From Rhynchonema sp. JSB1_4 (Eukaryota; Nematoda; Chromadorea; Monhysterida; Xyalidae), in the NCBI GenBank assembly GCA_030248065.1, contig JASAMV010002510.1, positions 62,001-126,000 of the forward strand: DNA of 64,000 bases. The letters are read 5' to 3'. The first letter of the stretch is position 1. Every line of letters starts with the position of its first letter. The notes beneath the pieces were generated by a model. The model was not told the DNA's origin, did no database searches, and saw only the letters and a program-made list of their open reading frames with translations. Of this stretch, positions 38,152 to 59,034 are shown in pieces. The position numbers were made by a program, and so were the translations under genes.

Positions 38152-39693
38152 CAGAGGTCGCAAACCGGCCGGCCCGGCCCAATGGGCATTTTGAGGGTAA
38201 AAATGGGGGGGGGGGTGGGTACCGGGGGGGGGGGGGTTGGGGGGGTAGAGGCAGTGTAGTGGCAGGCCCATGTGTGGGAGTGGGAGGTAAGTAAAAGTAT
38301 GATGCGGGCAGGGTAGTACTTGGGGGGGGGGGGGGGGGCCCCCCGCGGCCCCCCCAAATTCATCTATCTATCGTCAACACTTTTTGATTTCATCTATCTA
38401 TCGTCAACACTTATGGGCTAATCTATCTATCGTCAACAAATTTTGGGAACAATCTATCTATCGTCAACACATTTCGAACCCAAAATTGACATTTTTGACT
38501 CAAAATGGCTCAAAATCGGTATTTTTCACCCCAAATAGGCAAAAAATCGCGCGCTACGCGCGGATTTAGTACATCTAAGCACATTTTCATTAATATTTAC
38601 ACATTATTATCTACTTAGTACACTATACTACACCTTGATTTTTGGCGACCCCCCCCCCCACCATCTATCTATCGTCAACAAGTTTGGGTCGACCCCCCCC
38701 CCAGATTTCGGACTTGGGTCATCTATCTATCGTCAACACATTTCGGGTCCCAATCTATCTATCGTCAACACCCTGACCAAGTACTACACTGGATGCGGGG
38801 TTGGGACCGGAAGCCTGAGAGGTATGATTTTGGTCACCCAAAAAGGCGAAAAAACACCGTTTTTGTGATACAATTTTGGCCAAAAATTTAGGTAAAAATA
38901 GTACTTCTTCCAAATTTTCGCCGAAAATCGCCTAAAAATAGGTAGGGTGGGTTTGCGCGCGGAGCGCGCGATTTTTGGGAAAATAAGGTCGAAAAACACC
39001 GATTTTTGCCTTAAAAAGGCATAAAATTGCTTGTGAGAGGTATGATTTGGAGTTGTGAGAGGTAAGTACTCAACCCCCCCCCCAGTGTTGTGGCAGGTCC
39101 ATCTCCATGTGTGGGAGGTAAGTATGATGCGGGGTTGGGACCGGAAGCGTGAGAGGTATGATTTTGGTCACCCAAAAAAGCGAAAAAACACCGTTTTTGT
39201 GATACAATTTTGGCCAAAAAATGAGGTAAAAATACTACTTTTTCCAAATTTTCGCCGAAAATCGCCAAAAAAAGAGTGTGGTGTGGTGGGCTATCTATCG
39301 TCAACTAGTTTGGGTCGACCCCCCCAGATTTCGGACTTGGGTCATCTATCTATCTCAACACATTTCGGGTCCCAATCTATCTATCGTCAACACCCTGACC
39401 AAGTACTACACTGCCCAGGGGGGGGACCCCCACCCCCCCTGCTACACCATTGGGGCTCCCAGAGATTAGGATCGGGCCGGGCCGGAGATTTGGAGGTCCC
39501 CGTCTGATCGTCTCGTGACGGTTCACTCGATGTTTCTGTTTCATTTCAGAGATCGCAATCGGGCCGCGATTTTGGGCTTTTGGCTGAAGCCGGGTCGTAG
39601 TGGCCGGCGGCCCGGCCCGATCCTCCAAATCTCCGGCCGGGCCCGAGCCAGAATCCCAAAATCGCAGCCGGCCCGGCCCGGTTGCGACCCCTG
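38152..39693. repeat. Accretion of nested hAT-like elements
   Basis: The outer limits look like one old element: CAGAGGTCGCAAACCGGCCGG at 38152 and ...GGCCCGGTTGCGACCCCTG ending at 39693, without an exact target duplication. Inside are a CAGTGTAGTGGCAGG-type element starting at 38252 (split by the insertion at 38309-38791), a second related left end at about 39083 (CAGTGTTGTGGCAGG), and the right half of an ATCTATCTATCGTCAACA element ending near 39411. Long G and C homopolymers may hide assembly errors. Confidence 0.6.
38309..38791 (+). mobile_element. ATCTATCTATCGTCAACA-subfamily MITE, TSD gatgcggg
   Basis: The ends are CAGGGTAGTACTTGG and CCAAGTACTACACTG, flanked by gatgcggg at 38301-38308 and 38792-38799. 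Four direct copies of ATCTATCTATCGTCAACA lie left of the core and three lie right of it. The core contains CGCGCGCTACGCGCGG within A/T-rich text. It is inserted in another element: the related copy at 39083 onward has the uninterrupted sequence tatgatgcggggttggg. Confidence 0.93.
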
Positions 39694-39961
39694 CCGTTGC
39701 CGTGATCCTGTTGAGGAGGCTATAAATTACCGTATTGCGTATACCTATCCTAAAATACAAAAAATAGAACTCCCTAAAAGGGGTCAGTAAGAAAATAGAG
39801 CCACCAACTTAAAGCTGCTGGTTAACAACCCTTCGACCGCGCTTGATCTTGGGGGTAGTATATATAAACAAAGTTTGGACATCGTGTTACTCGACCCTAA
39901 TCTGGTGAGCCGATTGGTTGCTTCCTGATGTTTCACGGCCACGTTGAAGTTTGCCCCTCGT

Positions 39962-40359
39962 CAGTGTAGTTCCTGGTCCGGAGGGGGAACAGACGTACCC
40001 TCCACTATTTTCGGAGGGGGAACAGACGTACCTACCTGGGGGGGAAGGGGGGGGGAAGTCCCAATTTTGGGGGGGGGACGGAAAAAGTCATTTTTTGAGG
40101 TCGAAAAATTGGACTATTTTTGCCTTCTTTTGCGAAAAATCCCCTATAAAAAGGGTATTTTGGCGTTTTTTTGGAGGTTTCACCTAAAGTTTACCTATTT
40201 TTGGCCTAAAAATGCCTATTTTAGGCCCAAATTTGCCCATTTTAGGAAAAAATTGGGGGAGCAGACGTACCCGGAGGGGGAACAGTGGGGCAGGCGTACC
40301 TCGGAGGGGGAACAGACGTACCCGAGGGGGGTCCCCCCTCCCCCCCAGGAACTACACTG
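39962..40359 (+). mobile_element. GGGGGAACAGACGTACC-subfamily MITE, TSD cccctcgt
   Basis: The ends are CAGTGTAGTTCCTGG and CCAGGAACTACACTG, a perfect 15-bp inverted repeat, flanked by cccctcgt at 39954-39961 and 40360-40367. Direct copies of GAGGGGGAACAGACGTACC lie in both halves. The core is A/T-rich, and I saw no GCGCGC palindrome in this one. Confidence 0.93.
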
Positions 40360-40366
40360 CCCCTCG

Positions 40367-41268
40367 TATACAGTCATAAAGAACCGTTTTTTATTTTTCG
40401 TGGAAAAAAACGGTTTTTTTTCCGAAAAAAACCGTTTTTTTTCCAAATACTTTTCCAGTACTTAAGAACGTAATTTCGAAAAATATAACAATTTCAGTGC
40501 AAAATTTGTTCGAAGTGACGAGAGTGCCCTTGAAGAGTGTTGAAGTCAGTCGAAAACAATTGGTTTACACCAGTGTAGTGGCAGGCAAATGGTTGCAAGG
40601 TACCCTTGGGGGGGGGATGGACCCAGATGGTTGCAAGGTACCCCCCTACCCAGCCTCCGGGAGGTTGCAAGGTACCCCTGAGGTCCGAAAAAAGGGTGTT
40701 TTTTGCATGCATTATACTGCAAATTTGGCCGAAAAAATGGTACTTTTTTGCATTTTGGCCGAAAATTTGCCTCAAATACCTATTATATGGAGGTTTGCGC
40801 GCGGAGCGCGCGATTTTTGGGGTTTTGAGGTCGAAAAACACCCATTTTTACCTATAAAAAACCATAAATTGATGGTTGCAAGGTACCCTCCGGGGTGGTT
40901 GCAAGGTACCTACCCTTCCCCCCCCATCCCCCCCAAGGGGTGGTTGCAAGGTACCTACTCCCTAGGGGGGGGGGGAATCCCCCCGCCATCCCCCCCCAGC
41001 CACTACACTGGTTTACACGCTTTTTGGCCCATTTTGGGCCGGTTAAATTTTGTGCTCGAGCCAATTTTTCACTGAAATCGAAAAACTCATCGGTTTTGCG
41101 TTACAATTTTTTGGAAAAATTGGAATAAAGTACCGATATTTTTCCGATCAAAAACCGAAAAGGTACCCACGGAAAAATAAATGGAAAAGTATTCGGGTCT
41201 CGGAAAAAAAACGTTTTTTTTTCGGTTTTTTCCGAAAAAAAACCGGTTTTTTTCCGCCTGCCAGTATA
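40367..41268. mobile_element. TATAC-ended element rich in AAAAACGGTTTTT, TSD gcccctcg
   Basis: Its ends read TATACAG...CCAGTATA. The 8-bp flank gcccctcg lies at 39953-39960 on the left (now separated from the body by a later insertion) and at 41269-41276 on the right. The intact arm of the surrounding palindrome shows the empty site. The interior is repeated AAAACCGTTTTTTTTCC palindromes. Another element (40571-41010) is nested inside. Related copies occur at 60057-60433 and in HDAC1 intron 1. Confidence 0.75.
40571..41010 (+). mobile_element. GGTTGCAAGGTACC-subfamily MITE, TSD gtttacac
   Basis: The ends are CAGTGTAGTGGCAGG and the inverse ...AGCCACTACACTG, flanked by gtttacac at 40563-40570 and 41011-41018. 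Direct copies of GGTTGCAAGGTACC lie in both halves (about three each). The core contains TTTGCGCGCGGAGCGCGCGA and GGTCGAAAAACACC. Confidence 0.93.
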
Positions 41269-42344
41269 GCCCCTCGTGAAAAAAACCGAAAAAATTTGAA
41301 ACGCTGCTGTGACACGAATAGGCTGTTTCAAAGTTTGACACTAGAGTGACAGCAACCTCCAACAGTGTGCCGAAAACCGCAATGCACAATAGCTGTTCAA
41401 ACGTCCGCATTGTTGAATAAAAAAATAAAAGGTTTCAAAAGCCTGGCCATTTTTTGTTAGGATTTTCTACTCGTATAATTTTAAGCATCTGTGGTGAATG
41501 AAATAAGTTGTCAATTACAAATAAAAATCCTCTAATTATCAAGTTTTTTGTTTGTGCTCCCCAGTTTTCAAAACCCTACACAGCTCACACAATGTTTACC
41601 ACAACATGCGCAACTCAGCCATTCCACAGCGCACACACACAACAAAGCTTGCCAGCTGAAACATTGCTGTGTGGTCGCTGTGCCGGCTGTGTGTTGTCGT
41701 TGTGTGTGCGCTGTGGAATGGCTGCCTTGCGCATGTTGTGGTTAACATTGTGTGAGCTGTGTAGGGTTTTGAAAACTGGGGAGCACAAACAAAAAACTTG
41801 ATAATTAGAGGATTTTTATTTGTAATTGACAACTTATTTCATTCACCACAGATGCTTAAAATTATACGAGTAGAAAATCCTAACAAAAAATGGCCAGGCT
41901 TTTGAAACCTTTATTTTTTTATTCGACAATGCGGACGTTTGAACAGCTATTGTGCATTGCGGTTTTCGGCACACTGTTGGAGGTTGCTGTCACTCTGGTG
42001 TCAAACTTTGAAACAGCCTATTCGTGTCACAGCAGCGTTTCAAATTTTTTCGGTTTTTTTCACGAGGGGCAAACTTCAACGTGGCCGTGAAACATCAGGA
42101 AGCAACCAATCGGCTCACCAGATTAGGGTCGAGTAACACGATGTCCAAACTTTGTTTATATATACTACCCCCAAGATCAAGCGCGGTCGAAGGGTTGTTA
42201 ACCAGCAGCTTTAAGTCGACTTCGTTCAGTGTACCGCAAAACAACAAAACAAGGAACAACCGGAACAAAACAAACAAAAAGTGCATTTTTAGGTGCGGTT
42301 TTCAATTCAGCTGAACTTGAACCCTTGTACGTTCTAACTGGAAG

Positions 42345-45300
42345 ATGCCGGTCGGACCACACAGCAAAAAGAAGGTCGTGTATTATTACGATGGTAAGTG
42401 GCTTTGGGCCAGAGGTGGGAATCTAGCTCATGGCTCGACGAGGTTCTGGGGTCTGCCCGGCCCGACTTTGAAAAAAAAATTTCTGATGATATTTTGAAGA
42501 CAATTTTTTGGTGCAAAAATTACAGTTTTTTGTTTAAAAATACCTGAAAATCATAGAAGTCGTTCCTAAGCTGCTGAATCGCAAGAAATTTTGGCTAATA
42601 TACCGTAAAAAGTCACGATCTTTCATTGAAATTCGATGATGTCGGGCCTTTTCGGGCCGACCATCCCAGCCCGGCCCGATTTCCACCTCTGCTTCGAGAT
42701 GATAATGATCATGGGTCAGCGTCGGTCGTATACTCGTATGGACTGACGCCCACGCCCACCCAGTATGTTTGCAATTTTTCCGGAAAGATGTATTTACTGA
42801 AAAAAAAACCGTTTTTTTCATATTTTTTCGAGCCAAATTTGGGCACCGATCAAAATAGCGTGTATTTGGCACATTATGCGCCAAAAAATGGTGTATGAAA
42901 AGTAATCCTGTTGAGAAAGTGCGAATAAAAGCCATAAAAGTGCTGGAAAACACTTGAAAAATTATGTTTCTGCAATAAAAATAGGGTTTTCCCTTAATTT
43001 TGACACTAGCTCAGAAAAGTTCAAAATCCGCCGTGCAATCTTTCCGGAAAAAAGATATTTCACTGAAAAAAACCGTTTTCCAACTGCAATCGCAATTGCA
43101 ACTATACCACTCACACACAGTGGTGTAGCTTTTATAGTGACTGGTGGGCCTGTATCTGTAATTTATATTTGAAAAAACCGGTTTTTTCCAAAAAAGCGCT
43201 TTTTCCAATCAAATTTCCAGTACTTAAGGAATTCTGAAGGCAAAAACAACCTTTTTCGGCCGTTGTTGACTAACTAAAAGTGACTAAATTTTATATTTTC
43301 GAAAAAAACGTTTTTTTCTGGAAAAACGGTTTTTTCACATAAATTACCTATACTTAAACCTGGCCCGCCACTATTGATATTTGAAATTTTTGGTTTGTTT
43401 TTTTGCTCTAATTTAGTTGCCGACATCGAGACGAATAAGGTTTATATTCATGACTTTTTGATTTAGTGCAGATTTTATATCGAAATCAATCGATAAACAC
43501 CGGTTCTCGGGAACAAAATTAAAAAAAATAGATAGACCCCCACTTATTGGCAATCACGTCAGCCAGGAACAAAATTTTGAATTACCGCCAAATGTTATAG
43601 GCTTACAGTATGCTATTAGGGACTTTACGCTCCCGACTTTACGCTCCCACTACACAGTGCCGCCTGTGCGCGCGCTTGCAACACGTGTGTTACGCACTAA
43701 CAAACAGAGCGGCACTGTACAAAACGCATGGGCAAAATCACGTGACTACCGTATGCTTGTGATAAGAAGCAGTCGGCCATCTTGAATATTTGTTCTTGTC
43801 TTCCTGAAATGCACTAAACGGGGGTCTATCTATTTTTTGGAATTTTGTTCCCGAGAACCGGTGTTTATGGATTAATTGCGGTATTAAATCGGCACTTAAT
43901 GGAAAAGTCACGAATGTAAACCTTGTTGGTCTCGATGTCGGCAACAGTAATAAATCATAAAAACAGACCAAAATTTTCAAATATCAATAGTGGCGGGCCA
44001 GGTTTAAGGAATTCCAGAGTAAAAAACACCCATTTTTAGCTTTTCTTGCTTCGCCTATGTTTGTTATCATCTAAAAGCTAAAAAGTCGGCCGGTCAATCC
44101 GATCTTCCTTCAAGCACGCCCGTTCGTCCCGGCCGCCCGATCATCAGCTTTGACTGTGTGTGCATCCACAAAGTTGTTTCTCCCTATTGCAGGTGACATA
44201 GGCAACTTCTACTATGGCCAGGGTCATCCAATGAAGCCACATCGAATGCGCATGACCCACAATTTGTTGTTAAATTATGGACTGTATCGTAAAATGGAAG
44301 TCTACGTGAGTGAATCCGTTTGATCTTGATTACCTCTAATAGTTTTCTGTTTCATATCGATATATGAATATTTTGTATGATTGCAGCGATCTCAAGCAGC
44401 TCAATACGAGGAGCTGACAAAGTACCACAGTGACGAATACATCATGTTCTTGCGCAATGTGCGACCTGACAATATGACTGAATACAACAGACAAATGCAG
44501 AAATGTATAATTCTTTATTTTTGTTAATTTCTCAAAATTGATTATTTGATTTATCCATGTTGTTTCAGTCAACGTTGGCGAAGATTGTCCTGTATTTGAC
44601 GGCCTCTACGATTTCTGTCAAGTCTACACTGGCGCATCGCTTGGTTGGTCAATTGCTTGGTTTGCTGTTGTATTCAAATTTTATTCTGTCGCAGCGTGTC
44701 GCGCCAGGAGGATTAACGTTGACAAAAATAGCGTCCTATATGAATAAAATTTTGCAGCGGCTGCGGTCAAATTGAACAAAGGCCAGACCGACATTGCGAT
44801 CAATTGGTCCGGCGGACTTCATCACGCAAAGAAATCCGAGGCATCCGGGTTCTGCTATGTCAATGATATTGTGCTCGCAATTCTCGAACTGTTGAAGTTG
44901 GTCTTTCTTAGTTTGGCTTATTGTTAATTTGAGCTGGACACGCGTCCTACGTACGTGAATTTTAGGTGCCAGTTAGCTGCGTTCCAAATTTCGTTTTATG
45001 GATAAAGTGTGAAGCTGCAAACTTACCATGTCTCCGAATTTGTGGGTGCAAATAAAAATTTGAAGGCGCTAATGGCAGTGAAAACCAAAGTTTAACAAAG
45101 CTCAGATCTGTTCGTATAATTTCGGCAATCAAACAATCGCTTTACACCTGTCGTCCACGCAGATACCACCAACGTGTGCTCTACATCGACATCGACGTGC
45201 ATCATGGTGATGGAGTGGAGGAGGCGTTCTACACCACCGACAGGGTCATGTCTGTGTCATTGCACAAGTATGGCGAGTACTTCCCCGGCACTGGCGATCT

Positions 45301-47334
45301 CAGGGTGTGTTTGAGCTTGCGGTTGAGAATTATGTTGGTTTCTAACTTGCTTGGCGATTGATCGGACCGGTTTCTTGTCCTCGTTTGGGATGTTTTGAAC
45401 TTTACTGATGTCGCTCATTTGGACCAGCCTTGCTGTTGATCTCAGACTGCTAATCGAGAACTTTCGCGTTTTTTTCAAAATAACATGAGTAAATGTCAGT
45501 AAATCTCGAAGTATCCTAAACACACGAAGAGTGACGCGACCAAGACCGATAGGACCGATCACAAAGTTTGACACCGGAAACAGTGTTTTGTTGTTTCCAT
45601 GAACCATCTTGTCACATTGAACTCTAGTCTGACATTCATACCTTGCAGGACATCGGCGCCGGCCGAGGCAAGAACTACGCTGTTAATTTCCCACTGCGTG
45701 ACGGCATTGATGATGAATCATATGAACAGATATTTGTGCCGGTGTGTGCTTGGTTTTCGTTCATTTCATCATCAATATTTCATTCCTTCATCCCTAAAAT
45801 ACAACTGTTCCACCCGCTTGCTGCAGGTCATAACCAAAGTGATGGAGCATTTCCAACCGCAAGCCGTCGTGCTGCAGTGCGGTGCTGACTCGTTGACTGG
45901 TGATCGGTTGGGATGCTTCAATCTCACGCTGAAAGGTTGCTTATGTGGCGTTCATGTTTGCTTTTGTTGATGAAAATACATTTATCAAACATAATTGATA
46001 TCAGGTCACGCCAAATGTGTGGAGTTTGTGAAGAAATTCAACCTGCCTCTGCTGCTGTTGGGTGGCGGCGGGTATACGATAAGGAACGTGGCACGATGTT
46101 GGACGTATGAGACCGCCGTGGCACTCGATGTCGATATTGCCAATGGTTGGCTGGCCTGGGTCGTGGGGTCATGTTATGATTGATTGATGCGTTTCTTGAC
46201 TGTTTCATCGGGTGTCATGAAAAGTTAACAGATTTGACTATTTTACTTATCGTGTCAGATTGATGAGGGAGACATATCGGAGCTCTGCCCGTTTATCAGT
46301 GATTTTGATCCAAGTGGGAAATGTTTTCTCGATTTTGTGAAAGAACGCTTTGCATTCAATTTTCGCTCAGATGTCCAGATATCTGTTTTGTGGATGATTG
46401 TATACATTAACGAAACTTCACACGTTTGCAGAATTGCCGTACAACGACTACTTCGAGTACTACGGTCCGGACTTCAAACTGCATCTGCAGCCGTCGAATA
46501 TGACCAATCAGAATACCGCCGATTATCTGGAGAAAATCAAGTGCGATAATATTTGTCGATTTTATTTTATTTGAACTGGTAATTTGTTAATTTTTCCAGA
46601 ACGAAGCTCCTCGAGAATCTCCGCATGCTGCCGCCGGTGCCCGGTGTGCAGATGCAACGTGAGTTCAACGTTTTGCTTTTGTGTGAAAATAGTAATTTTA
46701 ATTTGTAAAGTCCAAATATTTGATATTTTTAAACATTTGAAAATTTTTGTCGTTCAGCCATTCCGCCCGATGCAACTGCTGAACTGAACACAGACATTGA
46801 CCACGAGCATATAGACGCCGACAAAAGAATGTCAAGTAAGTTGGCCCGTTGTTTTCCTTTTTTTCTCACTAATTTTGCTTCGAAATCCAAATATAAATGT
46901 TCCTTGTGCTCGAAAACTTCAATTTTTCAGTTCGAGCCAGCGACAAAATGGTCGAGGCCGACAATGAAATATATGACGGAGAGAAAGAAGGTAATGTGTG
47001 ATAACTACGTGGTTTTTCTATGATTGCATTTGTCACACTTTCTCTTCCATTGCATTCATTCATTCATTCACAGGTGGCGATGTGCGCAATGAATCTGCAG
47101 CGCCGCCGCAAAAGCGACCGGCAGACAGCGATTCCAGTGCTGAAACAAAGAAACCCAAAGTGGAGGATGACCAGACAAATGGGTTAGTGTGTTTCGAAGG
47201 AGAACGGGGTAAAAAGTATAAATTCAGAGCATTTTTCTGGTATTATTTTACGAACTGATTTTAGCGTCGCCGGGGATGTTGAAATGAAAGATGAAGCGAG
47301 CGCTGCTGAAGAGACTACCGAAAAGGCTGAATAA
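42345..47334 (+). CDS. HDAC1: Class I histone deacetylase, HDAC1/2 type
   Basis: This is a nuclear zinc-dependent lysine deacetylase, catalytic subunit of Sin3/NuRD-type corepressor complexes. Exons: 42345-42393, 44193-44305, 44387-44504, 44569-44644, 44758-44896, 45163-45304, 45649-45741, 45827-45935, 46005-46145, 46432-46540, 46600-46658, 46759-46835, 46931-46990, 47074-47182 and 47265-47334; all joins keep frame. Visible motifs are [20 protein letters not shown], the active-site [20 protein letters not shown], zinc-binding [54 protein letters not shown] and [39 protein letters not shown] follows. The C-terminal tail is acidic, with a KRPADSD...ETKKPK basic patch like a nuclear signal. Intron 1 (1.8 kb) is inflated by mobile elements. 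A palindromic element ends only about 135 bp upstream of the ATG. Confidence 0.98.
42410..42691. mobile_element. hAT-like MITE in HDAC1 intron 1
   Basis: Ends CAGAGGTGGGAATC and GATTTCCACCTCTG are inverted. The interior has inverted GCCCGGCCCG blocks similar to the outer element at 38152-39693. The 8-bp flanks differ (ctttgggc versus cttcgaga), so it is probably old. Confidence 0.65.
43358..44003. mobile_element. Fold-back element in HDAC1 intron 1 flanked by TTAA
   Basis: The ends ACCTGGCCCGCCACTATTG and the inverse are flanked by TTAA at 43354-43357 and 44004-44007. Inverted arms of nearly 200 bp surround a non-palindromic centre of about 270 bp. It interrupts an AAAACGG-type element whose uninterrupted sequence acttaaggaattc appears 140 bp upstream. 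Confidence 0.85.
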
Positions 47335-48458
47335 TGGTCGATAATAATCACATCATAATGTAATAATTGCGTTGGAAGCTGGATTGTGGATGGAATCGTT
47401 CACTGATTTTGTGCTACCCGACAAGAAGTTGTGGTTGGACTTTTCCGTCCAGTGTACTGACGGTCTTTTTGCAATCTTGAATCTTACTAGGTACAAGCGT
47501 TGTTCACCATTGTTTCTCATGTGCAGTTGTGATCTGTTCTGTTATTTTGATTTGTGTGCATCGATTTTGCAGAAGTTTGTTATACTTCTGTATTTTTGTG
47601 CTGGTATTTAATGTTACACTTGTAATGTAACCCATTATTCAATAAGTTCGTATTGTGTGTCTGTCGTAATCGTGTCGTTGGAACGTGTTCCATTTTCGCG
47701 GGTACTGCGCTCCGCTGCTGTTATTATTATCGCTGTTGATGCTCGTTTTTTTGTTTATTTTCTGTGCACCATTGAATTATCGAAGTAATCACGCATACTC
47801 AAGAGTTCCCTTGCTTGGCGCGATTAGTTCGGCGATTCAGTGTGATAATGCATTTTCACAACACAAACATTGTACTTTTTCTGGAAGAATGTATCCCACT
47901 TTATGTATTCCACTTTACCAACGTAGTTCTCTGCTTTAATCGAAGTGTTTTTGCTCTCTTGCAGAAAATAAATTCTGTTCGTTCTGACGAAAGCAGTGCA
48001 TATTCGTTTACGATTCACCGCCTTCCGTTTGCAAAGATAGTGTTGCCAGTAACCAAAGCCAGTAAAACGCTGTTATCACTTTGTTTGATTGGTTATAGTA
48101 AGTTTATTCGCTGCCGTACAATATAATACGCAACACAGTTCATGTTCAGATCTAAACCCGAAAATCAACTTTTGAAACATTCGGGCCACACACACACAAG
48201 CTTGCCAGCCAGCCAGGATATTCTGGGCACAATGTTTCAGAACTTCGCGTGGTTGGCGTTCAGGTTAGAACTTGACGTTAGCTATGCGCCGTATTATATT
48301 CCACGGCAGCGAACTCAGAAATTTATTTCAGTTGCACAAACAGATATTGATACTTTCCAGGTCGTTTGGTGGTGTTTTGTTTGTGCTTACGTTTTGGCCT
48401 TGGTGTGCGTTGATCAGTATTGAAAGTGAGCACCTGGCTGAACATCTCTCAGCAAAAT
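47335..48458. other. HDAC1 3' region and intergenic spacer
   Basis: No confident gene. T-rich plus-strand open stretches occur, but they lack domains and coding character. The region should hold the HDAC1 3' UTR and the promoter of the downstream enolase-superfamily gene. Confidence 0.4.
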
Positions 48459-51024
48459 ATGGAGAATCAGATCACCAAATTCGAGGTGTTTGATGTTCGA
48501 TTTCCGACGTCACAAACGAGGGAGGCGCCCAGCGATGCTGTGGTTAGCATGGGCCTTTATTTGGCGGGCACGCGATATGTTTTGCGGGCAGCATAAAATT
48601 GCTTTTTTTCTCTTTCAGCACAAATGCATCAACTTTTCGTGCGCCTACGTCATCGTCCACGTGACCGACGCACAACTGACTGGGCATGGATTCGCGTTCA
48701 CATTGGGTCGTGGCACGGAAATTAGTTCTGTTGCTTGTATTTGTTGATCGCTTTTGTTACAGATATTGTGTGCCGCAATTATCAATATCTGAGTCTTGCA
48801 AATGGTCTAGGACGAGATGTATCGTGTTATCATGCCATCGGGAGTATTCATACACGATCCACTGCCATACAGCCATAAAAAGAGTGTTTTCAGTCGTTAG
48901 CGCAATCAAAGCCTACGAACCATTTGTGGTTGGCGAAACGCTAGGTGAGATATACGGCAACTTTGGGCGATTCTGGAAAATGCTGCGAAATGAGGAGCAG
49001 TTGAGATGGGTACGTTGATGACGGGGGTGCATTTATCAATGCGTCTGCGAGTTCCAAAACTGCACTCAGATTGGACCCGATAAAGGCGCGATTCACATGG
49101 CACTTGCAGCCATCACCAACGCTTTGTGGGATTTGTGGTCCAAGATTGAGCGAAAACCGTTATGGAAATTGCTCGTTGATATGGTTGGCACCGCTGAGTT
49201 GAGTATATTGGACTTTTCCGGAAATTAAATCGAATTTTCAGACTCCAGAAGAAGTGGTCAAGTGCCTGGATTTCACGCACATGTCAGTTTGTCATCATAT
49301 TTGTTGGACCTGCAGCTTGTTTATTCAAGTATTTATTATGTGTCGACGGCAATCCCCAGGTCCGACGCACTAACAGAATCCGAGGCGTTGACCATTCTGC
49401 AACAAAATGAGCCGAACAAAGCCAAGCACGAGACGGACGTGCTGACTGACAATGTGCCAGCGTACATCACATCGGTGGGATGGATTGGATATGACGATGA
49501 AATGATACGAACGGTTGGCTATGTGTAGACCACCTTGGTGACTTCAGTGACGCAAGCAAATAAAGGACAACAAAACAACCGCCAAGACTGCATCACTGGT
49601 CGGTCACACTCAAGCACGTATTACACTGCCTGGCCATCTGTTGAGAAAACATAACAGTATTCAAATTATATTTTTCAGCTTTGTCACAAAGCCATGGCTG
49701 ACGGATGGACAAGGTACGACATGTTGTAGTTTTGCACAAGGATTGGCCATAATTTCCCTCACAACCACTTTTTCGAAAGGTTCAAAATGAAAGTTGGTAC
49801 GTCGCTCGCTGACGACAAACGCCGAGCAGCGATCATACGCGAAACGATCGGATACGAAAACAAACTGGTACAAAATAATATGTTCCCTGATCAACTGAAA
49901 GGGAGTGCTCCGAAATCTCACAGATGACCGACTGCAACCAAGTTTGGGATGTTCAAGTGGCGATCGATTGGATGAACGAGCTGGCCGAATTCAAACCACT
50001 TTGGATCGAGGAGCCCACACACCCCGATGACGTAGAGGGACATTTGAAGATTGCAAAGGTGCGAACATTACACTTGTGATCGGATTGCACTGTGGTCATG
50101 TGAACGTTTTTGCGTCAAAGGTTTGCTTGCTCAAGTCAAAAATGTCGACCAGCGTAAAAGCGTGAACCCCAATACGTAATCGATGGATCGCCAATTTTAC
50201 AGCCGTGGGAGTGGAGGGTTCCGCGCAAAATTCTGTATTCAAACAAAAATTTATCTAACAATTTCGCAAATACAGGCGCTCAGTTCTCTCGGTATCCGTG
50301 TGGCGAGTGGTGAGCACTGTTCGAATGCAGTCCTGTTCAAACAGTATCTGTCACGTGGCGCTATTCAATTCGCTCAGATTGATGCAACGCGATTGGGTGG
50401 AGTGAATGAGCAGATCATGGTGATGCTGTTGGCGAAAAAGTTTGGAGGTCCGTATTTTAGAAACTTGTGTGGTTGTGAAGATTGACACGTTTCTGAATGC
50501 ATATAATTCCGGCTATCCGAATCCGATACTGGACACCTACAATTGACACCAAGATCAAAACAGAATTTTTCAATGAACAATATTTTGCCTTTAATGTTTC
50601 AGTGCCGGTATGTCCGCACGCAGGTGGCACAGGCCTGTGTGAGCTTGTGCAACATTTGGCCATCTTCAATTACATTGCCATTGCGCCTACTTGGAAAGAC
50701 ACGTTACAAAATTTAAAACTGTTCTAACTTTTCCAACAAAGTTTTTTTCGTCAATTTTCTTCCAAATTTCCAGCATGGTCGAGTTTGCTGATCATCTACA
50801 CGAACATTTCGTGCATCCCGTTCGGATGCAACGCGGGTCTTACGTTCCACCAGCGGTTGGATTCTGGTCATCCGACATTATTTTGTGAAACTCAGTTGAG
50901 AATAGTGCAAATATTGCATTCAAATTCAACTCAGGCTCAAGGATATAGCACCGAGATGAAACGACAGTCAATTGAAACGTATGCGTTTCCGAATGGCTCG
51001 TGTTGGAAACGAAACCAGCATTGA
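48459..51024 (+). CDS. ENOSF1: ENOSF1-like enolase-superfamily enzyme (fuconate dehydratase type)
   Basis: Family members dehydrate L-fuconate by Mg-dependent enolate chemistry. The proposed start (48459) gives MENQITKFEVFDVRFPTSQT. Exons then encode VTDAQLTGHGFAFTLGRGTE, EEQLRWIGPDKGAIHMALAA, NALWDLWSKIERKPLWKLLV, SVGWIGYDDEM, DGWTRFKMKVG (catalytic K-x-K) and a DCNQVWDVQVAIDWMNELAE stretch with the first metal-binding Asp. FKPLWIEEPTHPDD (second ligand), ASGEHCSNAVLFKQYL (third ligand), IDATRLGGVNEQ, the CPHAGGTGLCELVQHLAIFN block with the catalytic His, and YSTEMK near the end complete it. Thirteen or so short introns are inferred from frame-preserving GT/AG joins, and alignment with the human family is nearly gap-free. 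The start codon is the least certain part. Confidence 0.92.
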
Positions 51025-51134
51025 TGGTGTCAGCCGATGGCACCATCACGTGACAATGAACTTTATCTGTTGAATGTCTCGTGAACTCAATTTCCATGAC
51101 ATTTCACAACTTTTAGTACACCACCCCTTCTTAA

Positions 51135-52879
51135 AGGGGCTCCGCCATATATACGCGACCGAAACCAATCTCAATGAAACTTGGCACCGTAAGTGGGCTT
51201 GGTCCTAAACACTCACGGCCAAGAAAATTTTTCCCCGTATCAGCTCCCTGTCTGAGCCAGGAAGGCTAAAAGGTAAAAAAATTTGACCCTACCTCAGCAC
51301 ATTGAAATTAAAATATCGATCTGTTTCGCATATTCTTTGTGTGCAGTTTGTTCACAAATTTTTCATAAACGCCTTGGGTCTAATTTAGAACCATATTCAC
51401 TTTTTTGGCACTACCACAGCTCGCGCTATTTTGCCAAAACCACGGAAAGTTTCGAAAAAAAATTTTCCGTTGTATTTTCCGGTCACATAGAAAGCACACA
51501 GAGTTTTTATATAAAGTAGGCAAGAAAGCCCGTATATCATGCTATTCAGGCGATCAATGACTAATTTTCCACCGCTGATAAGTTTCGACAAAAGCTCGCT
51601 CAACTGTGGTGAACCTCAACTTTTTTGCCATTTTCTGTGGATCCCAAGCACACTTCTATCTCATATTTTCCTATTTTAGTAACAATGTACCGAGGTGATA
51701 TATGACACGCTAGATAGTAAAAATATAATTGTTGTTAATTATGTGCAAATCTAGGTTGGTCCAGCTGCATCCTTGGAGGTACGAGCAATAAATGAATTTT
51801 ACACAAAATTCATAATTTTAACAAATTTTCACTTCCGTCATATTTGTAGCCTATCTACAGTTGGGTAGGAATTGTGGCTTTTACTGTCCGATGAAGCCCA
51901 AACGTTATTGTTGTTTATCGATCAAAATTCAAAATTATAGCTCTAACGTATCTTGAGAAAAATCGTGTTAATTGAGGTCCATGCGTTGGACTTGGAACTA
52001 CAACCGGGCTTACAGCAGGACCAGCGTCTGCGGTGCCTTCACTTAACATGATTTTTCTCAGGATACGTTAGAACTAGAATTTTGAATTTTGATCGATAAA
52101 CAACAACAACGTTGGGGCTTCATCGGACAGCAAAGGCCACAAATCCGTCGCAAATGTAGGTAGGCTAAAAATATGACGGAAGCGAAAATTTGCTAAAATT
52201 ATGAATTTTGTGTAAAACTCATTTATTGCTCGTACCTCCAAGGATGCAGCTGGACCAACCTAGATTTGCACATAATTAACAACAATTATATTTTTACTAT
52301 CTAGCGTGCCATATATCACCTCGGTACATTGTTACTAAAATAGGAAAATATGAGATAGAAGTGTGCTTGGGATCCACAGAAAATGGCAAAAAAGTTGAGG
52401 TTCACCACAGTTGAGCGAGCTTTTGTCGAAACTTATCAGCGGTGGAAAATTAGTCATTGATCGCCTGAATAGCATGATATACGGGCTTTCTTGCCTACTT
52501 TATATAAAAGCTCTGTGTGCTTTCTATGTGACCGGAAAATACAACGAAAAATTTTTTTTCGAAAATTTCCGTGGTTTTGGCAAAATAGCGCGAGCTGTGG
52601 TAGTGCCAAAAAAGTGAATATGGTTTTAAATTAGACCCAAGGCGTTTATGAAAAATTTGTGAACAAACTGCACACAAAGAATATGTGAAACAGATCGATA
52701 TTTTAATTTCAAGGTGCTGAGATAGGGTCAAAATTTTTTACCTTTTAGCCCTCCTGGCTCAGACAGGGAGCTGATATGGGAAAAAATTTTCTTGGCCGTG
52801 AGTGTTTTGGACCAAGCCCACTTACGGTGCCAAGTCTCATTGAGATTGGTTTCGGTCGCGTATATATGGCGGAGACCCT
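51135..52879. mobile_element. 1.75-kb near-perfect palindromic element flanked by TTAA
   Basis: It is flanked by TTAA at 51131-51134 and 52880-52883. Ends AGGGGCTCCGCCATATATAC and the inverse differ at one position. Two inverted arms of about 835 bp surround a loop of about 75 bp (51970-52045). Each arm contains the same 68-codon frame (MSELLSKLISGGKLVID...) mirrored at 51397-51603 and 52411-52617, with a handful of changes. No transposase is recognised. It starts 110 bp after the ENOSF1-like stop. Confidence 0.85.
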
Positions 52880-53075
52880 TTAAAGATAGACTTCAGTTTA
52901 ATGAATCACCTGTTGACTGGAATTTCAATCGATAATACAAATTTGCTAATTTTTGCATGGTGAGGTTGCGGTTCCATTTCATCATGAGCCCAAACGTTTT
53001 GCAGAAACAAAGTTCAGAGTGATCTCCAAAGTCTAAGAAACATTCAGAAACTCAATATTTTTCAATTTCCAAATA

Positions 53076-53305
53076 CAGTGAACCCTCGTTATAGCGAATT
53101 TCAATATTACGTGCGCAAGGTGGAGTAACCAAATAAATGTTCTGGACCAATACTGCATAAAGGACGCCTTGCTAGGTTACAGGCAGTGCATAATTTTGAA
53201 GAAAAGTGTTTAGTACAGCACTGCCATCAAAACAACCAGAACCGTGCAGATGGTAACGAACGGAATCAAGTCTCCCAACTGATTCGTTATAACGAGGGTT
53301 GACTG
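53076..53305. mobile_element. pogo/Tigger-like MITE with TA duplication
   Basis: The inverted ends are CAGTGAACCCTCGTTATAGC and the inverse of CAGTCAACCCTCGTTATAAC, flanked by TA at 53074-53075 and 53306-53307. CAGT(C/G)AACCCTCGTTATAACGAAT ends are characteristic of pogo/Tigger-type non-autonomous elements in animals. Confidence 0.88.
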
Positions 53306-53334
53306 TATAATCATTTTATTCTCATTTTCTCATG

Positions 53335-54229
53335 CTAATTCTTTTTGATCTTGCTGTCAATCCAGTGCATCGACGGTCCCACCACCTTTTCGTACATTTT
53401 CTGGGCGCCCAACGTTTTCGGATGGAACAGGTAGATCATGAATGCGAACCTGAATTGATTTATTGATTTTGGTTGACTCATTGATTGACTAATCAATTAA
53501 TTGATGTTTGAGATACTTGATCAGCCAGTAGAACGGCAGCTGGGCGGTGATTGGTTCGCTGAAGAAGTCGACAAGACTGCAGAACGCGAACACACACCAG
53601 TACGTCAGCCATTGCTTGTCGTCGTGCTTGTTGGCAGCGCCGATCACCTTGGAACATCAGGATAGGGCTCATGAAAAAGTCACAAAATGAAACATCACAG
53701 AAGTACGCTCAACCTTGTAACTCATGTACGCCGGATACGCAAACGCGGTCACGTTGCAGACCACCTCGGCAGCCCAACCGAGCACCAGGTAGGCACAGAG
53801 CGCTGCCAAACCGGTGGCCGCCTGTAATCGGCGCAGTTTTCTCTCTCAAGATTCATTTTGACAAGATTATTCTGCGGCACACAAACCAGATGCTGTCGTT
53901 TCACATTCGTCTTCTCTTCGATGCTGGCGAGCACACGTTGTACCGGCGAGTCGGTATCATAGACCACATGCACGTAATCACCTGTAAATTTTCTAAATAT
54001 AAGTCCTTTTCCGAAGCCGTCTTCTAAAAGTACCTGGTTCTGGCTCTGCTTCCACGCCCAAATGTTCTTCTGCCAGTTCGTCCCAGAATGCGGACGACCA
54101 ACAGTGCTCCAGCTGAGCCTCCGGTGCCCGGCTTCTGTAGCTGACCACCGAACTTGTGTCTGTCCAAAAAGTTTCACACTTGACAAAAGTTTTGTGCTCA
54201 ACATTATCTTGACGGCTCTCCAAGCTCAC
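53335..54229 (-). CDS. REEP/DP1/Yop1 family ER membrane-shaping protein
   Basis: Family members insert hairpins in the ER membrane and stabilise tubules. The exons read VQRVLASIEEKTNVKRQHL, then ATGLAALCAYLVLGWAAEVV, TAFAYPAYMSYK, DDKQWLTYWCVFAFCSLVDF, FSEPITAQLPFYWLIKYLK and FAFMIYLFHPKTLGAQKMYE...IDSKIKKN. The stop is at 53335. This matches the REEP5/6 layout, with YPAY, the DD.QWL.YW motif and a GA..MY C-terminus. Introns at about 53450-53512 and 53650-53715 separate the last exons. The N-terminus is unusual: an acidic upstream exon (ELAEEHLGVEAEPEPG) joins in frame to GDYVHVVYDTD. A different frame beginning MLSTKLLSS would need no intron there. The start is therefore uncertain. Confidence 0.85.
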
Positions 54230-54920
54230 TCTGCGCGGGCAAATCTATCTAATCTGTGCGCGAGTTGGACAGGCACAGTTCCGCAGTCAGCCACAACATC
54301 TTATGTCCGCATCATCAATGACCCTCGCTGGGGCGAACTGAGAGAGCGTCACCCACAAAAAAAAACAATTGAAAATAAATTTGATGCTGCAAAATAGTTG
54401 AGCGAGATATCAATACCTTCTGAACTCAGCCCCCACTGCGCCGCAACGCCTGCCATTTCGTTGTTTAGGTGTGATCTGCTGATATATTTATGTCAATTTC
54501 GGTTCTTCAGATTGGAAATGATGTAAGCGATGATGGTCTGTGTTTGGAATGGAAAGTCAACTTTCGCAAGTCACTGTCAGTGGAAATGAAGAATGAAACA
54601 GATTTTTGCGTGATTTCATTTTCGTTTGATCTCCACATTGCATACACGAGACTGAAAATGCCAGAAGTTCAATACCAGGACACTTTGGTCGGAGTAAGAC
54701 CCAGCCGTCCCGGTTTCACTGTGCTGGTTTTCCCGGTCCTCCGCGGGCGCGGGAAAACAGAATTTGAATTACCATTGGTGGTTCTCGATATTTCCAATTC
54801 TTTCATATTCATATCGACTAATTTTTTTGTGGTGCGGTGACGAGACGACCCTGAAACACGCAGGCGTACAGTGCCCAGCAGTGCTGGCGTGCTGCTGTTG
54901 ACCGACACATGCTGGACCGG
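54230..54920. other. Spacer with overlapping unassigned ORFs
   Basis: A plus-strand frame of 116 codons (54490-54840) overlaps a minus-strand frame of 79 codons (54669-54908). Neither has a recognisable domain. The minus one could be a 5' exon of the REEP gene, but I see no supporting evidence. Confidence 0.3.
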
Positions 54921-55634
54921 CAGTGTAGTGGCTGGGGGGGGGGGGCGATGGGGGATTCCCCCAGTGCCAGTGGTGTACCTTAAAAACCTACCGTAAAACC
55001 CACCTAAAATACAAGGGGGCTGTATTTTTTCACTGACCCCTTTTAGGGGGGGGCTGTATTTTTGGGGGGCTGTATTTTTTCGCTGCCCAAAAACTCAAAA
55101 AAATGTTCCAAAAATACCCCTAAAATGGAGTTCTGTCAGGGTGTTACTGGTCATTATTGAGTGTTTTTAGGTGCAGATCTTCCATAAAAGGCTTTACGTC
55201 ATCATATACTCAACCACAAACGTTGTACACAAGGTGTCTTATACAGGAGCTTCACTTTACGACCCCCAAGCGGGGGATTTCCAAGTTGGGGGGGGCTGTA
55301 TTTTTGGGGGGCTCTATTTTTTCACTGACCCCGGTTAGGGGGGGGGGGGGGGGGGGGCTGTATTTTTTTTGGGGGGGGTGCTTTTTGGGGGGGCTCTATT
55401 TTAGGGAATACGGTAAATACAGCCCCCCCCGGAATAGAGCCCCCCGTACGTAATGCAGCCCCCCAAAAAGGGTCAGTGAATTAATACAGCCTCCCCCCCA
55501 AAGTAACATCCCCTATACAGTTGTGTATTAAGGCTTGATAGTGGTGCACTGCACAGCACAGGTACCTTTATGCACGTTTGTTGTTCGTTCAGAGCACATA
55601 CCGTAAAAACCAAAATACCGTAAAAACCTAAATA

Positions 55635-56531
55635 CCGTAAAAACCTAAATACAGCCCCCCCCGGAATAGAGCCCCCCCGTAATACAGCCCCCCAAAAAGG
55701 GGTCAGTGAATTAATAGAGCCCCCCGGAATAGAGCCCCCCCCCCGAAAGTAACATCCCCTACACAGTAGTGTATTGACGCTTGATAGTGGTGCACAGGTG
55801 CATTCAGTGTGGTGGCAGGCCAATCGACCCAAGATACCCTAGGGGGAGGGGAAGGTTTCGGACTTACTCGAGATACCCCCCAGAGGCTACCCAAGATACC
55901 CCTATGGTCCGTCAAAAGGCGAAAAAAGGCCGTTTTTTGCATGCAATTTTATTGCAAAATTGGTCTAAAAATGGGTATTTTTTGACATTTTTGCCGAAAA
56001 TTCGCCTAAAATGACCATTTTTGGGTGTTTGCGCGCAGAGCGCGCGATTTTTGGGGGTCCCGAGGTCGAAAAACACCTATTTTTGCCTTTGAAAACCATA
56101 AATCTACTTACTCGAGATACCCTTTGGGGTCGGCTCGAGATAGATACCCTTCCCCCCCCCCATCCCCCCCTAAGGGTTGACTCGAGATAGATACCCCTTA
56201 GGGGGGGGGGAATCCCCCCCATCCCCCCCAGCCACTACAGTGGGTGCATTTATGCACGTTTATTGTTCGTTCAGATTACATAACACGCCTCCTATTGACG
56301 AATAGACACGAATAAATGCGATTACAAGCGAAAAAACATCCTTTCAAACCCCTTTTTAGGGGTTTTTGGGGGTATTTCTAGGAACAATTTTTTCAGGTTC
56401 GGGTCAGTGAATTAATAGAGGCCCCCCCCGGAATAGAGCCCCCCTCCGTAATAGAGCCCCCCCGTAATAGAGCCCCCCAAAATGGGGTCAGTGAGTTAAT
56501 AGAGCCCCCCCTTCTATTTAGGTTTTTACGG
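55635..56531. mobile_element. TA-flanked CCGTAAAAACC element (interrupted)
   Basis: The ends CCGTAAAAACCTAAATA and the inverse are flanked by TA (55633-55634 and 56532-56533). Subterminal GAATAGAGCCCCCC-type repeats run in the same direction at both sides. The unique middle is interrupted by the element at 55805-56242. Extra copies of the left end (near 55600 and 55615) show repeated insertion or slippage. Confidence 0.7.
55805..56242 (+). mobile_element. CTCGAGATACCC-subfamily MITE, TSD ggtgcatt
   Basis: Ends CAGTGTGGTGGCAGG and ...AGCCACTACAGTG are flanked by ggtgcatt at 55797-55804 and 56243-56250. Copies of (A)CTCGAGATACCC or its variant ACCCAAGATACCC lie in both halves. The core has TTTGCGCGCAGAGCGCGCGA and GGTCGAAAAACACC, shared with the 40571 element. 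The empty site is visible in the sister unit near 58860 and 59178. Confidence 0.92.
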
Positions 56532-57213
56532 TACCATGTTGTCGGAAATAGAACCCCCCCCATTAATTGACCCCCCCCATTAATTGAACCCCCCCTAAAT
56601 GGCTCGAAATCAAAAATAGAACCCCCCCATTAATTGACCCCCCCATTAATAGAACCCCACCCCAGCCTTCACCGCACCACAGATTAGTGGTATGGTAGGG
56701 CTGTGTTGTTGTGTCAAACGTTGTTTAAGCTTGCGTACACAACAGAATACAGCTTTTTAAGCATAATTGCTGCTGTTGAAGTTAGAAAATACCTAAAACA
56801 AGCCATGTTTATGGGCATTATTAACAATGATTTTTTTCGTCGGGGGGCCAAATGAAAAATATAACCCCCCCAATAATTGACCCCCCCCCCCATAAATTGA
56901 ACCCCCCCAAAATGACCCCAGTGAAAAAATAGACCCCCGGGTTCTATTTCCGACAATACGGTAGAGCCCCCCGGAATAGAGCCCCCCTCGGAATATCGAT
57001 CGAAAATAACGCCGGATTTGGAACGCTCTCGCTGAGAAACGAAAATAATTTTTTGAAAATGGGGTCAGTGGATTAATAGAGCCCCCCCCCTTGTATTTTA
57101 GGTTTACGGTAACCCAATTCTAGTCAAAAATTTTTCGATTTTTTTAACCTATTTTTTTGGTTGAAAATTCATTGTTTTCCATGAAAAAGTCGTCAGATAG
57201 ACAATACTGATTA

Positions 57214-57293
57214 CCGTAAAAACCTAAATAGAAGGGGGGCTCCTCTTAAAAAGAAGAATTAATAGAGCCCCCCTTGTATTTAGGTTTTTACGG
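57214..57293. mobile_element. 80-bp miniature CCGTAAAAACC fold-back
   Basis: This is the smallest copy of the TA-flanked family: CCGTAAAAACCTAAATA at one end, its inverse at the other, and TA on both sides (57212-57213 and 57294-57295). Confidence 0.75.
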
Positions 57294-57347
57294 TACAGGC
57301 CCCCCCCGCCCCCGTAATACAGCCCCCCCAAAAAGGGGTCAGTGAAT

Positions 57348-57824
57348 CAGTGTAGTACTTGGTCAGGGTGTTGACGATAGATAGATTGGAACCCGAAATG
57401 TGTTGACGATAGATAGATGACCCAAGTCCGAAATCTGGGGGGGTCGGGTCGACCCAAACTTGTTGACGATAGATAGATGGTGGGGGGGTCGCCAAAAATC
57501 AAGGCATAGTATAGTGTACTGTGTAGGTAATAATGTGTAAATATTAATGAAAATGTACTTAGATGTACTAAATCCGCGCGTAGCGCGCGATTTTTTGCCT
57601 ATTTGGGACAAAAAATACCGATTTTGAGCCATTTTGAGCCAAAAATACCCATTTTGGGGTCGAAATGTGTTGACGATAGATAGATTGTTCCCAGAATTTG
57701 TTGACGATAGATAGATTTGCCCATAAGTGTTGACGATAGATAGATGAAATCAAAAAGTGTTGACGATAGACAGATGAATTTGGGGGGACCCCCCCCCACC
57801 CCCCCCTCCCCACGTACTACCCTG
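57348..57824 (-). mobile_element. ATCTATCTATCGTCAACA-subfamily MITE, inverted copy, TSD cagtgaat
   Basis: This is the same subfamily as 38309-38791 in the opposite orientation. Ends CAGTGTAGTACTTGG and CCACGTACTACCCTG are flanked by cagtgaat at 57340-57347 and 57825-57832. The GCGCGC core and the seven direct repeats are present. Confidence 0.92.
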
Positions 57825-57844
57825 CAGTGAATTAGTAGAGCCCC

Positions 57845-58786
57845 CAGGGTAGTACTTGGGGGAGGGGGTGGGGTCCCCCCCAAATTCATCTATCTATCGT
57901 CAACACTTTTTGATTTCATCTATCTATCGTCAACACTTATGGGCTAATCTATCTATCGTGAACAAATTTTTGGAAGAATCTATCTATCGTCAACACATTT
58001 CGAACCCAAAATTGACATTTTTGACTCAAAATGGCTCAAAATCGGTATTTTTCACCCCAAATAGGCAAAAAATCGCGCGCTACGCGCGGATTTAGTACAT
58101 CTAAGTACATTTTCATTAATATTTACGCATTATTATCTACTTAGTTAGTACACTATACCAGTGTTGGAGGTACTCTGGAGGGGGGATACCTACTGTACCG
58201 CGCTCGGAGAGGGGGGGATACCTACAGTACCAGAGCCGATGGCCTGGGGGGGGTTATGTACCTAGGGGGGGGGGTTGGGGGGGGGTTAGGTTTTGGGGTG
58301 AAATTTTTTTATGTGTTTATTATGTGTGGAATCGTGTGAAAACGTAGTATTTGCGCGCGTAGCGCGCGAATTTCGGGTAATTTGAGGTAAAAACCACTGA
58401 TTTTGCACTAATTTTGGCCATTTTGGTCAAAAAGTGGCACTTTTGGGGCAAAATCGGGGGGGATACCTACGGTACAGGGGTGAAAATCGGGGGGGATACC
58501 TACTGTACCATGCCAAACATCGGGGGGGAGGGGGGATACCTACTGTACCAGGCGAGGGGGGATACCTACTGTACTGGGGGGGGGGCTACCCCCCCAAACC
58601 CCCCCCCCCCACCAACACTGCACTATACTATACCTTGATTTTTGGCGACCCCCCACCATCTATCTATCGTCAACAAGTTTTGGTCGACCTCCCCCCCAGA
58701 TTTCGGACTTGGGTCATCTATCTATCGTCAACACATTTCGGGTCCCAATCTATCTATCGTCAACACCCTGACCAAGTACTACACTG
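57845..58786 (+). mobile_element. ATCTATCTATCGTCAACA-subfamily MITE split by another element
   Basis: The left end CAGGGTAGTACTTGG starts at 57845 and the right end CCAAGTACTACACTG stops at 58786. Its target duplication is obscured by C homopolymers (agagcccc versus cccccccc). It is interrupted at 58159-58620 by a different subfamily. Without that insertion it is about 470 bp and nearly identical to 38309-38791. Confidence 0.88.
58159..58620 (+). mobile_element. GGGGATACCTACTGTACC-subfamily MITE, TSD cactatac
   Basis: Ends CAGTGTTGG and CCAACACTG are flanked by cactatac at 58151-58158 and 58621-58628. Direct copies of GGGGGATACCTACTGTACC flank a core with TTGCGCGCGTAGCGCGCGAA. The empty site cactatacta is intact in the copy at 38309-38791. 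Confidence 0.93.
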
Positions 58787-59034
58787 CCCCCCCCCGAAAT
58801 AGAGCCCCCCTAAGTAACATCCCCTATACAGCAGTGTATTAACGCTTGATAGTGGTGCACAAGTACATTTACGCACGTTTATTGTTAGTTCAGAGCACAT
58901 AATACGCCTCTTATTGACGAATAGACACGAATAAATGCGATTACAAGCGAAAAAACATCCTTTCAAACCCCTTTTTGGGGTTTTTAGGGGTATTTCTGGG
59001 AACAATTTTTCAGGTTTGGGTCAGTGAATTAATA

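Follow-up and report, generated by a model that had tools for sequence, protein, structure and literature searches.

We describe a group of miniature inverted-repeat transposable elements (MITEs) from the nematode Rhynchonema sp. JSB1_4, found in a 64,000-nucleotide stretch of contig JASAMV010002510.1 (positions 62,001 to 126,000, hereafter the window) and throughout the 203.9-Mb assembly. In being MITEs of the hAT type these elements are ordinary; what is unusual in them is that a short motif, repeated in one direction at dispersed subterminal sites and putatively recognised by a transposase, has been rewritten in place and in concert on a chassis that was otherwise kept. The cleanest case of this concerted change is the C group, in which one chassis carries two different motifs.

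The families are designated A to H, and each motif consists of a variable half of six to eight nucleotides followed by a half that is mostly kept. Seven of the nine motifs end in GTACC or GATACC: TTGCAAG-GTACC in B, CTCGAGATACC in E, ACAGAC-GTACC in C, GATAGY-GTACC in C2, CCTACT-GTACC in both D and G, and GGGTAGG-GTACC in H. The motif of F ends in GGTAAG or GGTATG and that of A (TTGACGATAGATAGAT) keeps GATA only; GAACAGACGTACC and GAGATAGYGTACC are also among the motifs of these MITEs. An earlier reading of the window, made from its sequence only, had the motif changing completely between elements, which is not the case, since most motifs share the 3’ half.

The C chassis has the tips CAGTGTAGTTCCTGG, lacks a palindrome, and comprises the subfamilies C (n = 6), C1 (n = 5), and C2 (n = 11), whose tips are identical. 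Outside the motif and the tips, the identity of the consensus sequences is 0.82 for C-C1, 0.83 for C-C2, and 0.87 for C1-C2 (0.865, 0.830, and 0.854 as means over copies). The variable motif columns, with a half-site included, are identical at 33 of 34 positions in C-C1 (0.97), at 5 of 34 in C-C2 (0.15), and at 6 of 34 in C1-C2 (0.18), and over copies these values are 0.94, 0.18, and 0.22. Because the three subfamilies stand at nearly equal chassis distances and at unequal motif distances, the divergence of motif and chassis has not been parallel. The sequence-only reading had named parallel divergence of core and cassettes by point mutation as the outcome that would remove its modular interpretation; in this group that outcome is rejected, with 5/34 identical motif positions against 263/318 in the rest for C-C2 (p = 1.4e-15) and p = 4e-17 for C1-C2. 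If the sites diverged at the rate of the remaining sequence (0.173 changes per base), five hexamers with at least five changes each would have a probability of about 3e-16, a figure that is a bound for independent drift only and is blind to small indels. When sites are compared one by one, the motif identity is 0.87 within an element and 0.17 between C and C2 at the same site, while the spacers show 0.18 within and 0.78 between upstream of the motif, and 0.36 and 0.75 downstream. One composite site includes a truncated motif copy, lacking the GTACC half, that switched along with the full sites: in a hand count of the first 100 of its 2,030 places in the genome, both halves are C-type in 58 and C2-type in 41 (a few of them with one or two substitutions), one place is unrelated, and none is mixed.

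Families B, E, and F show concerted change on a second chassis. Among their consensus sequences, and with comparisons that are mutually non-independent, the variable 8-mer has an identity of 0.90 between sites of the same element (n = 40) and of 0.46 when one site is compared across families (n = 16), while the 12 nt upstream of the motif give 0.29 and 0.64, and the 12 nt downstream 0.28 and 0.60, respectively. Between B and E, identical positions amount to 15/16 in each tip, 40/84 in the motif, 25/25 in the palindrome, 27/45 and 66/73 in the left and right inter-motif sequences, and 91/116 and 45/54 in the core. Measured against everything except tips and palindrome, with the left spacers included, the motif is more diverged in B-E (p = 3.5e-8) and in E-F (p = 5.7e-4). 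The first site of this chassis, counted by hand in the first 100 of 2,627 places, is of type B in 46, F in 38, and E in 16, with no fourth class; the corresponding hand count for the A chassis, over the first 100 of 1,062 places, gave the A motif every time, exactly in 92 and with one substitution in the others.

Since the spacers between sites are still homologous close to the motif edge in both B/E/F and C/C2, the motif must have changed in place. This bears on the possibility that recombination moves whole subterminal cassettes as blocks between chassis, for which one could cite the word AGATAG, which A, E, and C2 have in their motifs, and TACCTACT, which occurs in those of D and G (four such shared-word pairs were reached in 3 of 2000 shuffles, the units being hand-chosen). 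However, each chassis has kept its own spacers beside the sites, by which test block exchange is rejected for B/E/F and C/C2, and among the 70 palindrome cores typed on both sides the only apparent left/right hybrids are two nested insertions, although L085, L087, and L138, with matched cores, carry a motif of a foreign family on one side. We regard block exchange as highly improbable. From the earlier proposal of coordinated cassette replacement on a constant chassis, the kept chassis and the coordinated change at nearly all sites are retained, and the replacement of blocks is not, as the spacers stay homologous.

The arrangement of the sites is also kept. In the seven families with a palindrome, the orientation of the motif relative to the core is constant and the offsets are similar: -207, -169, -135, 75, 98, and 143 in B; -201, -165, -142, 79, 102, and 148 in E; -183, -145, 77, 99, and 148 in F; with A, D, G, and H roughly similar. 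Judged by eye, families D, G, and H look partly tandem on the right side. We considered 104 distinct palindromes, of which 70 could be typed on both sides by the commonest motif class per side (D and G counted as one class), 16 on one side only, 11 lay at locus edges, and 7 were motif-less. Left and right classes agree in 68 of the 70, so that the same motif does sit on both sides, as had been claimed; the remaining two, the candidate chimeras L109 and L155, are in fact nested insertions visible in the sequence.

Genome-wide, exact sites on both strands number 9,407 for motif A (about seven per element), 6,105 for motif B, 2,959 for motif C2, 1,491 for the core GAGGTCGAAAAACACC, and 5,712 for the palindrome CGCGCNNAGCGCGCGAWTTT, and the reversed pattern used as control gave none in these and all other pattern counts made in the genome. 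We sampled 60 places each for the core and the palindrome, the former being the first 60 in order and the latter taken from the first 100, and added other loci and the window; A is under-represented in this sample because places already covered, seven places known to be A, and the last twenty places were left out for the palindrome. Ends paired on end sequence alone are flanked by an 8-bp duplication with at most one mismatch in 108 of 129 pairs (exact in 90), compared with 114 of 25,591 swapped pairs (0.45%); 58 C rows enter the 129 pairs in both orientations, as the C tips are nearly alike, and the independent count is about 100. The duplication boundary is absent in 3 of 14 C2 loci and in 10 of 20 C/C1 loci. 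The left tip is CAGTG in all eight end groups, and the right tips are less uniform (CACTG in E, CATAG in F, and CAATG in many G). Fifty palindrome elements were bounded, of which a score filter removed three; the 47 complete ones measure 343-483 bp and by their ends are A (5), B (16), E (10), F (3), G (9), D (3), and unassigned (1), while the C, C1, and C2 elements measure 356-418 bp. Two loci, L014 and L018, contain a complete element of family H (CAGTGCTGTGGCTACT, motif GGGCGGGTAGGGTACC), and four further loci contain the left end of one. These apparently non-coding elements have the short length (below about 600 bp), the terminal inverted repeats, and the high copy number of MITEs, and they share with the hAT superfamily the 8-bp target duplication and tips of the CAGNG type, which is the hAT consensus. 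A similar GCGCGC palindrome occurs in another context, mostly CTGACGCGC..AGCGCGCGATTTTT, in L122, L123, L126, L131, L137, and L157; these loci lack subterminal motif repeats and possibly represent an unrelated family.

The elements of the window are the following:

38252-39082, plus strand: family F element with the ends and consensus of F and motif GTGAGAGGTA/GTGGGAGGTA, interrupted by the next element and lacking a right end; core GGTCGAAAAACACC at 38987-39000.
38309-38791, minus strand: family A element of 483 bp inserted in the preceding one, with exact 8-bp duplication GATGCGGG, seven copies of motif TGTTGACGATAGATAGAT (ATCTATCTATCGTCAACA on the plus strand), and the palindrome at 38548-38562.
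39083-39413, no strand: chimeric remnant, its left part F and its right part A, with no duplication seen.
39962-40359, plus strand: family C element of 398 bp, exact duplication CCCCTCGT, five sites resembling GAACAGACGTACC, one of them the composite GGGGGAACAGTGGGGCAGGCGTACC; no palindrome.
40571-41010, plus strand: family B element of 440 bp, exact duplication GTTTACAC, six copies of motif GGTTGCAAGGTACC (three left, three right), palindrome at 40798-40812 and GGTCGAAAAACACC at 40829-40842.
55805-56242, plus strand: family E element of 438 bp, exact duplication GGTGCATT, six motif copies (CCCAAGATACC, CTCGAGATACC, and CCCAAGATACC on the left; CTCGAGATACC and two CTCGAGATAGATACC on the right), palindrome at 56032-56046.
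57348-57824, plus strand: family A element of 477 bp, exact duplication CAGTGAAT, seven motif copies, palindrome at 57575-57589.
57845-58786, minus strand: family A element with seven motif copies and no target duplication, 472 bp long when the nested D element is subtracted together with one duplication copy.
58159-58620, plus strand: family D element of 462 bp nested in the preceding one, exact duplication CACTATAC, six motif copies resembling GATACCTACTGTACC (two left, four right), palindrome at 58354-58368.

The earlier count of at least six complete elements of similar size is thus confirmed with seven, and the exact 8-bp duplications, given before for five of six, bound six of seven. The GCGCGC palindrome is indeed present in most of them (six of seven, the exception being 39962-40359). 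The further motif family GTGAGAGGTA of the element starting at 38252 and the chimeric remnant had not been reported before. Open reading frames of at least 120 aa cross several of these elements according to the window’s open-frame list, and Rfam at gathering threshold gave no match in 38200-58850. In the same region, 39807-42216 consists of nested large inverted repeats, with outer arms 39807-39961/42062-42216 (155 nt, 100%) and further arms 41269-41454/41885-42070 (93%) and 41420-41639/41701-41920 (98%); the C and B elements sit between the outer arms. At 51131-52883 lies a foldback whose arms, of 845 nt each, are 96% complementary and enclose a loop of 63 nt. Dense repeats with G- and C-runs, of the type AATAGAGCCCCCC ... 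GGGGTCAGTGAATTAATAGAG, occupy 54950-57340 and 58790-59140, with several MITEs among them. Read by eye, 42345-47334 holds a gene for an HDAC1-type histone deacetylase with many introns, whose homologues come from many animal phyla, and mostly from animals, at up to about 80% identity; the best-scoring one is an oomycete protein (63%).

Uniformity across the sites of an element is incomplete, as fixed site variants persist at the first site of C1 and in E. A seven-base pattern for the first left site of the C chassis matches 673 places, and a hand count of the first 100 gave ACAGGCG-GTACC in 90; ten of 11 such loci sampled show another complete site, and all ten read CAGACGTACC there. The six-base form occurs at 437 places, and the first 100, also counted by hand, include 94 ACAGAC and 2 GATAGT. 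Family E (CTCGAGATACCC) has the three site-specific variants CCCAAGATACC, CTCGAGATACC, and CTCGAGATAGATACC. Conservation was measured in families set by their ends only, as differences from the consensus in the motif versus spacer and core, and is demonstrated in A (2/560 versus 34/1080, p = 6e-5) and B (14/1280 versus 107/2761, p = 3e-7), and weakly in E. An alternative test, with families set by motif and gap columns dropped, gave stronger conservation (in G, 0/606 versus 16/1146, p = 0.002) and is not relied on.

These observations bear on a neutral homogenisation, in which short-tract gene conversion or template switching between the sites of one element would spread a new motif with no binding partner involved. 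The truncated half-site of the C chassis, switched with the full sites, fits this explanation, and the GGGGGA...GTACC frame of the C sites could anchor the tracts; against it, site-specific variants survive in many copies of C1 and E, the tracts would need to end near the motif edge at each site, and the motif is conserved within A and B, and we consider it unlikely. The agreement of left and right sides supports a coordinated change of the motif, and the 673 first-site places, mostly ACAGGCG-GTACC, speak against a homogenisation that is complete.

The explanation that we favour, and hold to be somewhat more probable than not, is that the subterminal repeats of these hAT-type MITEs are transposase-binding sites that were rewritten in place to follow different transposases. 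The elements would be non-autonomous, and their five to seven direct repeats would be the recognition sites of a trans-acting hAT transposase, most likely of its N-terminal BED-type domain. When transposases with other specificities took over the mobilisation of related lineages, the chassis, made up of the CAGTG... tips and the palindromic core, would have stayed as it was, and the six to eight variable bases would have been rewritten at nearly all sites to fit the new transposase. Sorting would take place by selection through mobility, since the copies whose sites fit are those that get copied, and the supply of changes may have come from short-tract conversion or template switching between sites, anchored on the C chassis by the shared GGGGGA...GTACC frame. 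We infer the binding of the motif by a transposase, the selection that drives the switch, and the conversion step; that the half-site switched too suggests that copying between sites helped.

A partner was sought with the hAT dimer domain profile PF05699, which gave 330 candidates in the genome, 150 of them scored and 50 places examined. Forty-eight of these have the ends of one of two element types, X or Y, and L016 and L177 have neither. X (CAGTGTTCGAACGGGA; GATCCCGATCC) has CAGTG tips and an 8-bp duplication in 21 of 27 end pairs, three of the unduplicated pairs being second pairings in loci that already have a duplicated pair; Y (TAGGGATCGGCGTCGG; CGGTGTCGGTA) has the duplication in 7 of 7. 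Both carry the dimer domain and a short motif directly repeated at both ends, and both are abundant and mostly 0.8-1.5 kb long (L009-L038, L162-L181), so the layout of hAT elements in this genome is that of the MITEs. A search for the BED finger gave 33 matches, 27 of them at 31.3-31.7 bits, and in the only BED frame read, that of L159, the finger lies inside a Y-type frame.

Several results weigh against the binding-site explanation. Among the 50 dimer places examined of the 150 scored, no transposase could be assigned to the MITE ends. MITE ends or motifs do lie close to a dimer domain in L014, L018, L027, L036, L163, L164, and L179, which we read as nested or neighbouring elements; alignments were made for L014, L018, and L036, and these three are rejected as transposase-bearing members because it is a nested Y element that carries the dimer domain. 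The conservation of the motif is weak in E (7/655 versus 43/1681, p = 0.025) and is not seen in F (0/120 versus 12/583, p = 0.24, n = 3) or in G (37/889 versus 59/1281, p = 0.67), and a comparison window moved rigidly along the element shows a rate no higher than that of the motif in 2/77 placements for A, 4/63 for B, 6/81 for E, 25/94 for F, and 18/32 for G. The half-site lacking the GTACC half also switched, a change that selection on complete sites alone does not need. Finally, the motif is not more diverged than the rest in B-F (40/70 versus 180/282, p = 0.34; p = 0.20 without the left spacers), and the left spacers of B/E/F by themselves show a divergence close to that of the motif (p = 0.20, 0.55, and 0.84), so that the case of these families depends on the sameness of the motif within an element and not on a universally faster divergence.

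These last two results, together with the 3’ half and the register common to most motifs, would suit the ordinary history in which motif and chassis diverge in parallel, through point mutation, from an ancestor that already bore the repeats. Such divergence is rejected in four of the five different-motif pairs tested (C-C2, C1-C2, B-E, and E-F, at the p-values given above) and is not rejected in B-F, and the identity within an element far exceeds that between families at the same site, which leaves it very improbable.

The motifs are read as binding sites because hAT transposases are known to bind short subterminal repeats. The main rival, which we judge unlikely, is that they bind another protein, encoded by an element or by the host, such as an anti-silencing factor of the type of VANC from the Arabidopsis VANDAL elements, and that the switch follows that protein. 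VANDAL elements are Mutator-like. In the portions of the VANDAL accounts available, same-orientation motif arrays likewise differ between related elements, and coevolution with an element-encoded protein is proposed; however, that system involves tandem-repeat turnover and anti-silencing and is not hAT, whereas the sites here are dispersed and changed in place. VANC targets reportedly change by the formation of tandem repeats, and such change was not found in B/E/F and C/C2, whose dispersed sites keep their own, positionally homologous spacers. In addition, X and Y, with their hAT domains, have the same direct subterminal layout in this genome.

The transposase-binding explanation has its closest parallels among known hAT elements, as far as the available parts of their descriptions show. 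The BED domains of Hermes bind subterminal repeats (PMC10368747), Herves has a CG/AATTCAT motif at both ends (PMC3143072), and Ac has the subterminal motif AAACGG (PMC3260210). Herves and Hermes thus resemble our elements in a short motif repeated at both ends, which in them is bound by the transposase, whereas in ours the binding is putative; they are single elements for which those accounts describe no family of concerted variants, and the Hermes repeats are mostly antisense on the left and sense on the right, unlike the single orientation seen here. The maize Ds1/Ac system, with AAACGG, likewise has short elements with common tips and a short repeated subterminal motif (PMC3260210), but Ds classes, as described there, share or lack one motif, whereas here different motifs occur on one chassis and are switched at nearly all sites. 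The CMITE families of Acropora corals (PMC2872659) also have a conserved internal region, but according to the parts available they are piggyBac-like and their terminal inverted repeats diverge, whereas here the tips are largely kept and the subterminal motifs switch. No described family with this layout was found in the literature searched, which excluded most subscription papers and Repbase, and the layout is not shown in the available parts of PMC10368747, PMC3143072, PMC2872659, PMC5735166, and PMC3260210.

The recurrence of the word AGATAG in three motifs (A, E, and C2) hints at a reuse of specificities across chassis. As a tentative generalisation, which we consider possible and rather less probable than the binding-site explanation itself, MITE lineages might repeatedly switch the transposase that they parasitise by rewriting all their dispersed half-motifs through short-tract copying, with different chassis converging on the same specificity words. 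For transposons it is, to our knowledge, an open problem how a recognition code spread over many sites can change and stay functional throughout. The C chassis presents two motif states on bodies that are 82-87% alike, in hundreds of copies, and with its switched half-site and the site-specific mixed forms of C1 and E, the order and the mechanism of the change become testable by comparison and by binding assays. These elements thus offer a readable record of how a parasitic DNA may change the protein on which it depends.

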